Below are positions 26,309-37,467 of a stretch of 41,640 nucleotides of DNA, piece after piece. Position 1 is the stretch's first letter. Every line of letters starts with the position of its first letter. The DNA is from Selenomonadaceae bacterium (GTDB taxonomy: Bacteria; Bacillota; Negativicutes; Selenomonadales; Selenomonadaceae), in NCBI GenBank assembly GCA_017406175.1, contig JAFQZB010000251.1:1-41640 (forward strand). Reading direction: 5' to 3'. Position numbers and translations under genes: made by a program. The notes under the pieces were generated by a model, which was not told the origin of the DNA, did not search any database, and saw only the letters and a program-made list of their open reading frames with translations.

Positions 26309-26989
26309 ATGGCAAAGCAAAGCAAAAGATTCCGCGAGGCTCAAGCCCTCGTCGAGAATGGGAAGTTTTACACCGCTGACGAAGCTGTTGCCCTGGTGAA
26401 GAAGACTGCAACGGCTAAGTTCGATGAGACGATTGAATTGCATGTGCGCTTGGGCGTCGACCCGAAATACGCTGACCAGCAGGTTCGCGGCGCAATCGTC
26501 CTTCCAAACGGCATTGGCAAGACAAAAAGAGTTTTGGCATTCGTCGCGGGCGAGAAGGCTAAAGAGGCTGAAGCGGCAGGCGCGGATTATGTCGGCACTG
26601 ATGATTTGGTCGCGAAGATTCAAGGCGGTTGGTTTGATTTCGATGTAGCAGTTGCTACGCCCGACATGATGCGCATTATCGGTCGCTTAGGTAAGCTCTT
26701 GGGTCCGCGTGGACTTATGCCTAACCCGAAGCTCGGTACTGTCACCAACGACATTGCTAAGGCTATCGGCGAGCAAAAGGCTGGTAAGGTCGAATACCGC
26801 ACCGACAAGCAGGGCAACATTCACTGCCCGATTGGCAAGAAGTCTTTCGAGGAAGACAAGCTCAAGGAAAACTATCAGACGCTTATCGATACGTTAATCC
26901 GTGTCAAACCGGCGGCGGCGAAGGGTCAATATATCCGCTCAATCACGTTGGCGGCGGCAATGGGTCCTGGCGTCCCGATTCAAATCTAA
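26309..26989 (+). CDS. rplA: 50S ribosomal protein L1
   Basis: A 226-aa protein of the L1 stalk that moves deacylated tRNA out of the E site. It has the L1 signature '[25 protein letters not shown]' and '[26 protein letters not shown]'. In bacteria L1 also represses the L11 operon by binding its mRNA. AAGGAGG SD; a 49-bp spacer follows rplK. Confidence 0.98.
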
Positions 26990-26997
26990 AACTGAAT

Positions 26998-27108
26998 ATC
27001 TCAGACCATAGACGGCAAGTTCGGCACGCCGATTAAAGTGCTTGCTCAGGTCGAAAGCAACTTTGACGTTAAAGTTTCCTTCGGTCTGTGTGGTCGAAGG
27101 ATTTTTAC
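26998..27108 (+). ncRNA. Ribosomal protein L10 leader with attenuator
   Basis: Between rplA and rplJ lies a structured leader. The region 'AGACGGCAAG...GGCACGCCGATTAAAGTGC' fits the L10-leader kink-turn element that binds the L10(L12)4 complex. Near its end TCCTTCG (27077-27083) pairs with CGAAGGA (27095-27101), followed by TTTTT, an intrinsic attenuator. Excess L10/L12 would favour termination before rplJ. Assignment rests on position and motif, not a covariance search. Confidence 0.7.
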
Positions 27109-27130
27109 TTTGTGTGGGGAGGTGAAATTT

Positions 27131-35123: not shown

Positions 35124-35151
35124 TTTACAACGATTGACCTTATGCTATAAT
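35124..35151 (+). promoter_or_regulatory. Promoter of small-peptide module 1
   Basis: TTTACA (35124-35129), a 16-bp spacer and TATAAT (35146-35151) with extended TGc. Expected transcript start is near 35158, giving a 5' UTR of about 49 nt. Confidence 0.78.
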
Positions 35152-35170
35152 CGTTGCCAAGCGATAGATG

Positions 35171-35199
35171 GTCGGCTCTCTCCTCAATGAGGGGAGGTG
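35171..35199 (+). promoter_or_regulatory. SD-sequestering hairpin of module 1
   Basis: The 5' UTR run 35177-35185 (TCTCTCCTC) pairs with GAGGGGAGG (35189-35197), which is the SD of the peptide at 35207, with G-T pairs and a 3-nt loop. In addition GTCGGCTCTCTCC (35171-35183) is perfectly complementary to GGAGAGAGCCGAC (35349-35361) in the 3' UTR. The two pairings of the same segment are mutually exclusive, a potential translation switch. Confidence 0.75.
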
Positions 35200-35206
35200 A
35201 CGCACC

Positions 35207-35284
35207 ATGACGAAATACGAAATCGCATCTCTGATTCTCCAGGGTCTCAATCTGGTTGTGTCAGTGCTCGCGTACCTCGACTAA
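35207..35284 (+). CDS. TxpA/BsrG-like type I toxin peptide (module 1)
   Basis: A 25-aa peptide beginning 'MTKYEIASLILQGLNLVV' and ending VLAYLD: a polar Met-Thr-x-Tyr-Glu start then one hydrophobic helix. The start resembles the TxpA/BsrG and holin-like-toxin family of Firmicutes (M-x-x-YE-x-L-hydrophobic), membrane toxins controlled by antisense RNA. It is too short for ordinary gene finders. Supporting evidence: own promoter, strong SD (GGGGAGGTG) locked in a hairpin, a long structured 3' UTR, an intrinsic terminator at 35398-35441, and a convergent promoter for an antisense RNA. It lacks the basic C-terminal tail of Bacillus members. Confidence 0.7.
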   Translation: MTKYEIASLILQGLNLVVSVLAYLD

Positions 35285-35307
35285 GTCGGGTAGCGGGTTT
35301 GCCACCG

Positions 35308-35409
35308 CAAAACGGCTCTTGACCTAAATCCACACGTTTCTAACTACGGGAGAGAGCCGACGCGCCAACATCGACTCGCTCGCGCTCCGTTCATGACGGG
35401 GCGTTTTCG
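35308..35409 (-). ncRNA. Putative antisense antitoxin RNA, module 1
   Basis: Predicted from a minus-strand promoter (TTGAAA-17-TATAAT) with start near 35409. A terminator-like stem CGGCTCT (35359-35353) / AGAGCCG (35319-35313), loop 33 nt, is followed by TTTT. The RNA of about 100 nt is fully complementary to the toxin mRNA 3' UTR. Its 3' arm AGAGCCG can also pair with CGGCTCT in the toxin 5' UTR (35173-35179), because that heptamer is repeated. Confidence 0.6.
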
Positions 35410-35441
35410 ATTGCAATTATAAGCAATGCCCCACTATTTTT
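35398..35441 (+). terminator. Terminator of the module 1 toxin mRNA
   Basis: GGGGC (35398-35402) with GCCCC (35428-35432), and inner ATTGC (35410-35414) with GCAAT (35423-35427), followed by ACTATTTTT. It overlaps the antisense -10 element. Confidence 0.7.
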
Positions 35442-35444
35442 CAA
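35416..35444 (-). promoter_or_regulatory. Antisense promoter of module 1
   Basis: On the minus strand TTGAAA (35444-35439), 17-bp spacer, TATAAT (35421-35416). It lies just downstream of rlmH and points at the toxin gene. Confidence 0.78.
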
Positions 35445-35455
35445 GAAAAAGTTTT

Positions 35456-35899
35456 CTACCAGTGATAGGGTTCGTTGCGATTGATTTTGAATGCACGGTA
35501 GATTTGTTCGACGAGGACGAGCCGCGCCATTTGATGAGTAAGCGTCATCTTGGACAAAGATAATCGGAAGGACGCCGCCTGCCTGAGTTCCTCGCTCAAG
35601 CCGAACGCCCCTCCGATTGCAAATGTCAGATTGCTAACGCCGCCTAAGTTCAGCGCGGCGATTTTCTTTGCGAAGTCCTCCGAAGTCAATTCCACGCCTG
35701 AAACGTCCAATACACAAAGCCACGAATCCTTTGGCACGAGCGATAAGATTTTCTGTCCTTCCTCTTCGACCGTGCGACATTCGGGCACCTCGCGGACTTC
35801 AAGCCGTGCGAACTTCTGCAGACGCTTTACATATTCCGCCACGCCCTCGACTAAGAATCTTTCCTTGAGCTTGCCGACTACGATTAGATTTATCTTCAT
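35456..35899 (-). CDS. rlmH: 23S rRNA (pseudouridine1915-N3)-methyltransferase
   Basis: A 147-aa SPOUT methyltransferase that modifies pseudouridine 1915 in helix 69 of 23S rRNA. It starts 'MKINLIVVGKLKERFLVEG' and has the SAM-knot 'LTFAIGGAFGLSEELRQAA' and 'LSLSKMTLTHQMARLVLVEQIYRAF', ending in the characteristic NEPYHW (usually YHK). It overlaps the htrA stop by 4 bp (ATGA), so the two are translationally coupled. Confidence 0.97.
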   Translation of the reverse strand: MKINLIVVGKLKERFLVEGVAEYVKRLQKFARLEVREVPECRTVEEEGQKILSLVPKDSWLCVLDVSGVELTSEDFAKKIAALNLGGVSNLTFAIGGAFGLSEELRQAASFRLSLSKMTLTHQMARLVLVEQIYRAFKINRNEPYHW

Positions 35900-37053: not shown

Positions 37054-37082
37054 ATTGTAAATTTTGAGCCGCCGATTGTCAA
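37054..37082 (-). promoter_or_regulatory. Promoter of htrA
   Basis: On the minus strand TTGACA (37082-37077), 17-bp spacer, TACAAT (37059-37054), about 20 bp before the htrA ATG. Confidence 0.82.
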
Positions 37083-37101
37083 TTTTTATTTCGGTTAGAA
37101 A
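37062..37101. repeat. 40-bp promoter repeat, copy A (htrA); copy B at 37428-37467
   Basis: This 40-bp segment and 37428-37467 are identical at 36 positions. Both include TGTCAA, the reverse complement of the -35 TTGACA, plus the flanking A/T-rich upstream region. Copy A drives htrA and copy B drives the module 2 peptide, both leftward. Confidence 0.92.
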
Positions 37102-37107
37102 ATTTCC

Positions 37108-37136
37108 TTGCAAAGAGGCTCTGCGTCAATTATAAT
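37108..37136 (+). promoter_or_regulatory. Antisense promoter of module 2
   Basis: TTGCAA (37108-37113), 17-bp spacer, TATAAT (37131-37136), pointing right into the 3' UTR of the module 2 peptide mRNA. Confidence 0.8.
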
Positions 37137-37142
37137 TTGCCC

Positions 37143-37232
37143 GGCAAAACAAAATGCCCCGCGAAGTTTGCGAGGCGAGATTGCTTGAAAGCGGTTTTGC
37201 CCCTCGTATCTAGGTTTTGAAGCAAGTTTTTT
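37143..37232 (+). ncRNA. Putative antisense antitoxin RNA, module 2
   Basis: Predicted start near 37143. TTGCTT (37181-37186) pairs with AAGCAA (37220-37225) across a 33-nt loop, followed by GTTTTTT. The RNA of about 90 nt is complementary to the module 2 peptide mRNA 3' UTR and stops before the peptide ORF, as in module 1. Confidence 0.6.
37147..37176 (-). terminator. Terminator of the module 2 peptide mRNA
   Basis: On the minus strand GCCTCGC (37176-37170) pairs with GCGGGGC (37062-type arm at 37062 is unrelated; the arm here is 37162-37156) with one mismatch, followed by ATTTTGTTTT. Confidence 0.7.
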
Positions 37233-37265
37233 GAAACGATGCTCAGCCGCTAGCCGGGTCAGGGC

Positions 37266-37346
37266 TTAGGCGGCTGTTTTGCTGAGGAGGAGTAAAATCG
37301 CTCCGGTCAACAATGTCACGCGGACAATGAACTTAATCACGCGCAT
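37266..37346 (-). CDS. Small hydrophobic peptide, putative type I toxin (module 2)
   Basis: A 26-aa peptide beginning 'MRVIKFIVRVTLLTGAILLL' and ending LSKTAA: basic N-terminus and a single membrane helix. No family recognised. Evidence for expression: a full-consensus promoter 74 bp upstream, SD GGGGTGAG 7 nt before ATG and partly paired with CCCC (37366-37369) in a small hairpin, a long 3' UTR, and a terminator. The 5' UTR segments GCTTGAA (37413-37407) and GCGGTTTT (37391-37384) are complementary to AAAACCGC (37198-37191) and TTCAAGC (37189-37183) in the 3' UTR. A strong convergent promoter would make an antisense RNA. The layout mirrors module 1, so a toxin-antitoxin role is inferred. Confidence 0.65.
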   Translation of the reverse strand: MRVIKFIVRVTLLTGAILLLLSKTAA

Positions 37347-37419
37347 AATCTCACCCCACTTTCCGGGGGCTTCGATTTATATTAAAACCGCCTGTGCCGC
37401 GAAGGCTTCAAGCAAGCGG

Positions 37420-37448
37420 ATTATAGGTTTTGAGCCGTTGATTGTCAA
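37420..37448 (-). promoter_or_regulatory. Full-consensus promoter of the module 2 peptide
   Basis: On the minus strand TTGACA (37448-37443), exactly 17 bp, TATAAT (37425-37420). Expected start near 37413, 67 nt before the ATG. Confidence 0.9.
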
Positions 37449-37467
37449 TTTTAATTTCGGTTAGAAT
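37428..37467. repeat. 40-bp promoter repeat, copy B (module 2 peptide)
   Basis: Partner of 37062-37101 (36 of 40 positions identical). The downstream -10 regions differ: TATAAT here versus TACAAT at htrA. Confidence 0.92.

Follow-up and report, generated by a model that had tools for sequence, protein, structure and literature searches.

The window analysed here is a stretch of 41,640 nucleotides from the genome of an uncultured rumen bacterium of the family Selenomonadaceae. Within it, a compact locus on the minus strand, referred to below as module 2, sits upstream of htrA. The gene downstream of the module encodes a trypsin-PDZ protease of the HtrA type, the divergent neighbour encodes a DUF6033 domain, and a leader of about 70 nt on the minus strand connects the promoter of the module with its short ORF. 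The features of the locus are the following:

37420-37448, minus strand: promoter of the putative toxin mRNA, TTGACA-17-TATAAT (12/12 consensus positions; predicted start at about 37413)
37420-37466, minus strand: 47-nt block with a second copy (37054-37100, 87% identical) at the htrA promoter, likewise in G055 and G049
37407-37413, minus strand: outer helix, 5' fold-back strand GCTTGAA (partner 37183-37189)
37384-37392, minus strand: middle helix, 5' fold-back strand GGCGGTTTT (partner 37191-37198)
37365-37370, minus strand: anti-Shine-Dalgarno (anti-SD) arm GCCCCC; its two possible partners are the Shine-Dalgarno (SD) sequence and the SD mimic in the 3' UTR
37351-37357, minus strand: SD sequence GGGGTGA, enclosed by a small hairpin whose pairs are formed in 91% of the cells tabulated
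37266-37346, minus strand: ORF of a 26-aa basic-hydrophobic peptide, MRVIKFIVRVTLLTGAILLLLSKTAA (about 118 distinct homologues)
37244-37276, minus strand: stop-codon hairpin CAGCCGC...GCGGCTG, followed by TTTTGC on the plus strand; likely the antisense terminator
37199-37203, minus strand: SD mimic GGGGC in the 3' UTR, partner of the anti-SD arm
37191-37198, minus strand: middle helix, 3' fold-back strand AAAACCGC (covariation)
37183-37189, minus strand: outer helix, 3' fold-back strand TTCAAGC (covariation)
37145-37176, minus strand: intrinsic terminator of the putative toxin mRNA; its stem covaries (73 two-sided changes vs 19 in shuffled data)
37108-37136, plus strand: promoter of the antisense RNA, TTGCAA-17-TATAAT (10/12 consensus positions; recurs in homologues)
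37143-37283, plus strand: predicted antisense (antitoxin) RNA of about 140 nt, deduced from its promoter and the stop-hairpin terminator

Most of these elements had been read from the sequence by a first-pass annotation and were recovered here, namely both promoters, the peptide ORF, the hairpin in which the SD sequence pairs with GCCCCC, the outer complementarity between GCTTGAA and TTCAAGC, a second one between GCGGTTTT (37391-37384) and AAAACCGC (37198-37191), and an mRNA terminator expected near 37150-37176. The GCAAAACSGCT motif reported at the same time occurs twice in the window against 0.11 by chance, and the module 2 copy lies within the fold-back strand. Additional to that annotation are a third fold-back helix, formed by the anti-SD arm with the SD mimic of the 3' UTR, the stop-codon hairpin, and the 47-nt block duplicated at the htrA promoter. 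Seven promoter-like sites were counted in the stretch, where 1.3 were expected. An Rfam search gave no match for module 2. Elsewhere in the window, an ordinary cis-regulatory RNA, the leader of ribosomal protein L10 (Rfam RF00557), lies at positions 26988-27116.

The search for relatives yielded about 118 distinct homologous modules with the whole arrangement, all in one genus of ruminant-gut Selenomonadaceae. The genomes compared were nearly all metagenome-assembled. Homologues of the peptide are encoded in 45 of the 66 genomes of this genus, with up to eight copies per genome and frequent tandem arrays, and the peptide was found neither in the genomes sampled from 29 other genera of the family nor in a phylum-level sample of 397 further genomes. 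Exact matches to a 3' UTR pattern in named genomes all came from Selenomonadaceae or Selenomonadales metagenome bins (27/27) and, where a source was given, mostly from ruminant gut. Plasmid and phage collections, searched both by DNA and by protein, contained no match to the toxin; a 16-mer of the 3' UTR had 23 exact matches in viral contigs, which by our estimate is about the chance level for a collection of this size. The genome of module 2 itself holds a second intact copy of the module (C147:27868), a copy with a destroyed ORF and intact flanks (C147:16194), and a third copy of the peptide (C300:10413). A diverged peptide type, e.g., MDKIFVMIVVIIIVLVLTSGNAA, which the module 2 profile misses, was seen in G058 and G032 (L276, L277, L279, L298, and L307), with up to 14 matches to the RNA shell per genome.

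The first-pass annotation had named an ORF gathering stops and indels without constraint as the result that would speak against its reading. The opposite pattern was found: across the homologues the peptides remain in frame at 24-28 aa, pN was lower than pS in 53 of 56 independent close pairs (codons 2-19), and the median dN/dS was 0.33. The ORF is thus a real gene and, judging from these substitution patterns, the peptide is under purifying selection. The common core of the peptides is close to IIRV-x(4)-TG-x-ILL-x-LS-K-TAA. Searches of Pfam and NCBIfam placed the module 2 peptide in no curated family, and PDB sequences gave no match. The peptide presumably acts at the membrane.

The promoters were scored in the 117 modules with enough flanking sequence. 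With up to two mismatches allowed, 98 of them have a sense promoter located 45-125 nt ahead of the ATG (shuffle mean 1.2). An antisense promoter lies beyond the stop codon in 94 (shuffle mean again 1.2), within a range of 100-200 nt and at a median distance of 122 nt. In the antisense promoter, the TTG of the -35 element and nearly the whole -10 hexamer are invariant or almost so, and the spacer is much freer. This invariance is in part due to the selection exerted by the scan itself, and an alignment made independently of the scan agrees with it.

The predicted fold of the module 2 RNA is unusually stable (z = -3.7; none of 200 shuffled sequences was equally stable). An unbiased covariation scan of the alignment of leader and 3' UTR returned as its top pair one that joins the 5' and 3' parts of the fold-back, within the middle helix, which is TA in 75 modules, CG in 27, TG in three, and nothing else. 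The named helices were then counted in 116 modules against 500 shuffles. The outer helix showed 81 two-sided changes over seven pairs (shuffle mean 26), the middle helix 41 (16 shuffled), and the inner helix, made of the anti-SD arm and the SD mimic, 42 (10 shuffled), and in each case none of the 500 shuffles scored as high. The pairing was lost when the helix partner was slid, and at least 36 compensatory events, summed over eight pairs, were counted on a tree built without those columns. On these comparative data, all three fold-back helices are maintained through compensatory changes.

The anti-SD arm deserves separate attention due to its two potential partners. It shows 42 two-sided changes with the 3' UTR vs 12 with the SD sequence, and where columns 79 and 81 of the arm have T instead of C, the opposing SD base remains G, forming a wobble pair, whereas the 3' UTR partner is mostly A. 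As the 3' UTR partner mostly tracks the changes in the arm and the SD does not, the 3' pairing appears to be selected in its own right. In folding models, the outer and middle helices are almost always formed in the full-length mRNA (median P 1.0), the energies of the two anti-SD pairings are close to each other (0.8 kcal/mol apart in the median), and without a forced inner helix the SD sequence is for the most part occluded. The near-equal energies of the two states make a switch plausible but favour neither direction, and the one preferred below is inferred. A simple thermodynamic switch operated by 3' trimming received no support, as the SD is occluded in both trimmed and full-length mRNA (median unpaired probability of 0.00 and 0.04, respectively).

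The 3' end of the antisense RNA required a revision. An RNA of about 90 nt stopping short of the ORF, with a terminator stem enclosing a 33-nt loop, had been proposed initially; no plus-strand intrinsic-terminator-like site was found between 36400 and 38200, and few relatives have a terminator in that region, so a terminator before the ORF is neither present in the window nor conserved in relatives. On the plus strand at 37244-37283, the hairpin over the stop codon of the toxin is terminator-like in 109 of 116 modules vs 24 when shuffled. The TTTTGC that follows it corresponds to the codons of the S-K-T stretch in reverse, and some members of the family have only a weak T-tract here (three T out of seven in 40 modules). 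In the G000:C300 copy, the hairpin has been rebuilt as GGTCAG/CTGACC and the peptide C-terminus now reads TVS, which argues that a constraint on the RNA accounts for at least part of the C-terminal conservation. The antisense RNA thus probably ends at the stop-codon hairpin, at a length of about 140 nt and with a short overlap with the ORF.

Very probably, then, module 2 is a chromosomal type I toxin-antitoxin module and belongs to a new, lineage-specific, multi-copy family. The comparative data establish, at the level of sequence conservation, the coding constraint, both promoters, the three fold-back helices, and the terminator, and they strongly back the type I reading that had been drawn from the fold-back and the convergent antisense promoter; we infer transcription, toxicity, the membrane target, and the mode of antitoxin action. 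The minus strand would yield an mRNA of about 270 nt for the 26-aa basic-hydrophobic peptide, with the 5' leader folded onto the 3' UTR and the SD held in its hairpin. The convergent promoter would give rise to an antisense transcript about 140 nt long, which would have perfect complementarity to the 3' UTR and end at the terminator hairpin over the stop codon. This RNA may compete with the leader and take the 3' strand of the fold-back, its binding leading to a block of translation and/or to destruction of the mRNA, probably by RNase III, as for SR4 acting on bsrG (PMC5848175). The anti-SD arm placed on the SD would represent the off state, and placed on the SD mimic of the 3' UTR, possibly the on state. 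In the preferred, though least certain, step the antisense RNA would capture the mimic, so that the anti-SD arm returns to the SD.

A variant of the type I reading differs in the switch alone: the fold-back would be purely inhibitory, as in AapA/IsoA, so that the mRNA would be inert at full length and activated by 3' trimming, and the antisense RNA would bind the trimmed form. This is possible, if somewhat doubtful. The variant accords with a fold-back that is predicted to form nearly always and with an SD occluded in the full-length mRNA, and it has the AapA precedent (PMC6733600). However, trimming leaves the SD paired in the models, and what the 3' UTR contains is an SD mimic changing in step with the anti-SD arm, rather than an anti-SD sequence that pairs with the SD.

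Module copies devoid of the toxin ORF bear on the role of the antisense RNA. Sixteen such copies were found with a profile that excluded the antisense promoter, and the promoter is kept in 16/16. Nineteen copies had been flagged; L048 and L125, in which the ORF is present, and L209, with a different ORF, were left out. The toxin was lost by frameshift, deletion, or replacement, or the copy consists of a solo 3' UTR that follows an intact module. Recency could explain part of the complete retention of the antisense promoter. The solo 3' UTR copies (L010, L011, L055, L201, and L020) comprise the stop hairpin, the fold-back strand, the terminator, and the antisense promoter directly after an intact module, and look as if unequal recombination had excised the leader and the ORF alone. 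In several decayed modules, an interspersed repeat, GGTCGCTTTRAAAGCGACGGAACAGY, stands in place of the toxin start region; it occurs at L006, L062, L287, and more than 100 further places in the genus, with up to 16 copies per genome and in 24 of the 66 genomes, and a control pattern gave 0 occurrences.

The RNA shell of module 2 is also found around other peptides. Two modules lying in tandem in G043:C17 (L209) have 88% identity across 110 nt spanning promoter and leader, as well as near-identical antisense promoters; their middle helices differ by a compensatory change of TT/AA to TC/GA, and the peptides they encode, MDDYGFMAWLVTIIAIVAIFFKR and MRIMKIIIRVVIITGIIMVLCTKVAA, are unrelated. In G025:C102 (L296), both promoters are common to a Hol_Tox-like module and a module with the module 2 peptide, and Hol_Tox-like ORFs in G026 and G011 lie behind module-2-like leaders. 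The 3' halves of the tested cargo types outscored shuffled sequences, by a narrow margin for G026 and G032. Loci of the module 1 type are also detected by a covariance model built on the 3' half, as are, weakly, MDNMTLQLLLILLIIFAVNNRKK modules in another genus, in which the 3' half alone scores above chance. Module 1 itself (35140-35460 in the window) encodes MTKYEIASLILQGLNLVVSVLAYLD, with near-identical copies in G031 and G027 only among 60 genomes searched; it has a long fold-back, GTCGGCTCTCTC / GAGAGAGCCGAC, and an antisense promoter TTGAAA-17-TATAAT. Its peptide resembles Hol_Tox (PF16935) weakly, below the cut-off (E 0.033), and a relative in L285 exceeds that cut-off. The initial idea of a regulatory chassis carrying interchangeable toxins is thus supported within the genus by shared shells with unrelated peptides and is suggestive beyond it, where the signal is confined to the 3' half. 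A broader proposal, which we put forward tentatively, is that the RNA shell (fold-back, SD/anti-SD/SD-mimic switch, stop hairpin as antisense terminator, and convergent promoter) may be an evolutionary unit in Selenomonadaceae that receives unrelated membrane-peptide ORFs, that the antisense RNA may hand the anti-SD from the mimic to the SD, and that the toxin-less copies may act as free-standing antitoxins.

The position upstream of htrA raises the question of another role for the peptide. The promoter block of the module is a near-copy of the htrA promoter in G000, G055, and G049, and in the latter two each module promoter matches the htrA promoter of its own genome (L239 and L038). Modules or remnants lie immediately upstream of htrA in 8 of the 20 htrA loci examined, and G031:C84 (L227) is an htrA site without a module. 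Taken together, this suggests capture of a promoter, and the module may be co-expressed with the envelope protease. The same association, together with the conservation of the peptide, would be expected of a small regulatory or signalling peptide, e.g., a partner of HtrA or of a membrane protein, encoded by an antisense-tuned mRNA and not a toxin. We consider this unlikely: most copies, up to eight per genome, are not beside htrA, the same shell holds unrelated hydrophobic peptides, and the antisense promoter retained in toxin-less copies is a better fit to an antitoxin. A dispersed non-coding repeat of the MITE or REP type with incidental promoters and ORF would account for the multiple dispersed and tandem copies per genome, but is highly improbable in view of the dN/dS of 0.33, of promoters that stay fixed as spacers diverge, of helices maintained through compensatory changes, and of sequences in which neither terminal inverted repeats nor a target-site pattern was noticed.

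Type I toxins are usually classified by their peptide. If module 2 is a type I toxin-antitoxin module, the RNA control shell here can outlast a change of cargo. The tandem pairs of G043:C17 and G025:C102, with near-identical promoters and unrelated peptides, are natural adjacent controls and make it testable whether the RNA alone sets antitoxin specificity, whether one toxin can replace another with no need for control to evolve anew, and whether the antisense RNA of toxin-less copies serves as an anti-addiction antitoxin. The 3' SD mimic, if true, would allow an antisense RNA on the 3' UTR to close a ribosome binding site at a distance of about 150 nt, an unusual mode of control.

Searches of the open-access full-text literature turned up no account of modules like these from Selenomonadaceae. 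Small hydrophobic peptides in multiple copies, controlled by RNA antitoxins, are known from Fst/Ldr and Ibs/Sib. Module 2 shares with them the multi-copy small hydrophobic peptide, and its peptide matches no Pfam or NCBIfam family, searches in which short peptides are easily missed. The Hol_Tox loci of the module 1 type likewise combine a fold-back and a terminator with a similar antisense promoter, and the module 2 RNA model detects some of them, whereas module 2 has an unrelated peptide, a different fold-back sequence, and usually a different sense promoter. The BsrG/SR4, BsrE/SR5, YonT/SR6, and TxpA/RatA systems of Bacillus subtilis combine, like module 2, a small hydrophobic peptide with a convergent antisense RNA over the 3' end of the mRNA, and SR4 both recruits RNase III and alters the structure around the bsrG ribosome binding site (PMC5848175). 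In contrast to them, module 2 has a three-helix fold-back with an SD mimic, an antisense terminator over the stop codon, and an unrelated peptide, as module 2 peptides do not match the Hol_Tox/TxpA-BsrG profile (PF16935).

AapA/IsoA of Helicobacter pylori is encoded at multi-copy chromosomal loci and uses a long-distance 5'-3' interaction, an SD-sequestering hairpin, and a cis antisense RNA (PMC6733600). Module 2 is likewise multi-copy, with a 5'-3' fold-back, an SD hairpin, and a predicted cis antisense RNA. In AapA, however, the fold-back itself masks the SD (aSD3), while the 3' strand of module 2 contains an SD mimic as the partner of the anti-SD; pairing of an anti-SD at the 3' end with the SD was not found in module 2. 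The AapA host belongs to a different phylum, and Pfam, NCBIfam, and PDB searches revealed no homology of the module 2 peptide to AapA. One defining feature each of AapA and Hol_Tox was examined and found absent, so membership in them is not claimed. The best reading is that the module 2 family works like BsrG/SR4 and AapA/IsoA and is a member of neither, with the modular shell and the putative 3' SD-mimic switch as its possibly novel aspects.
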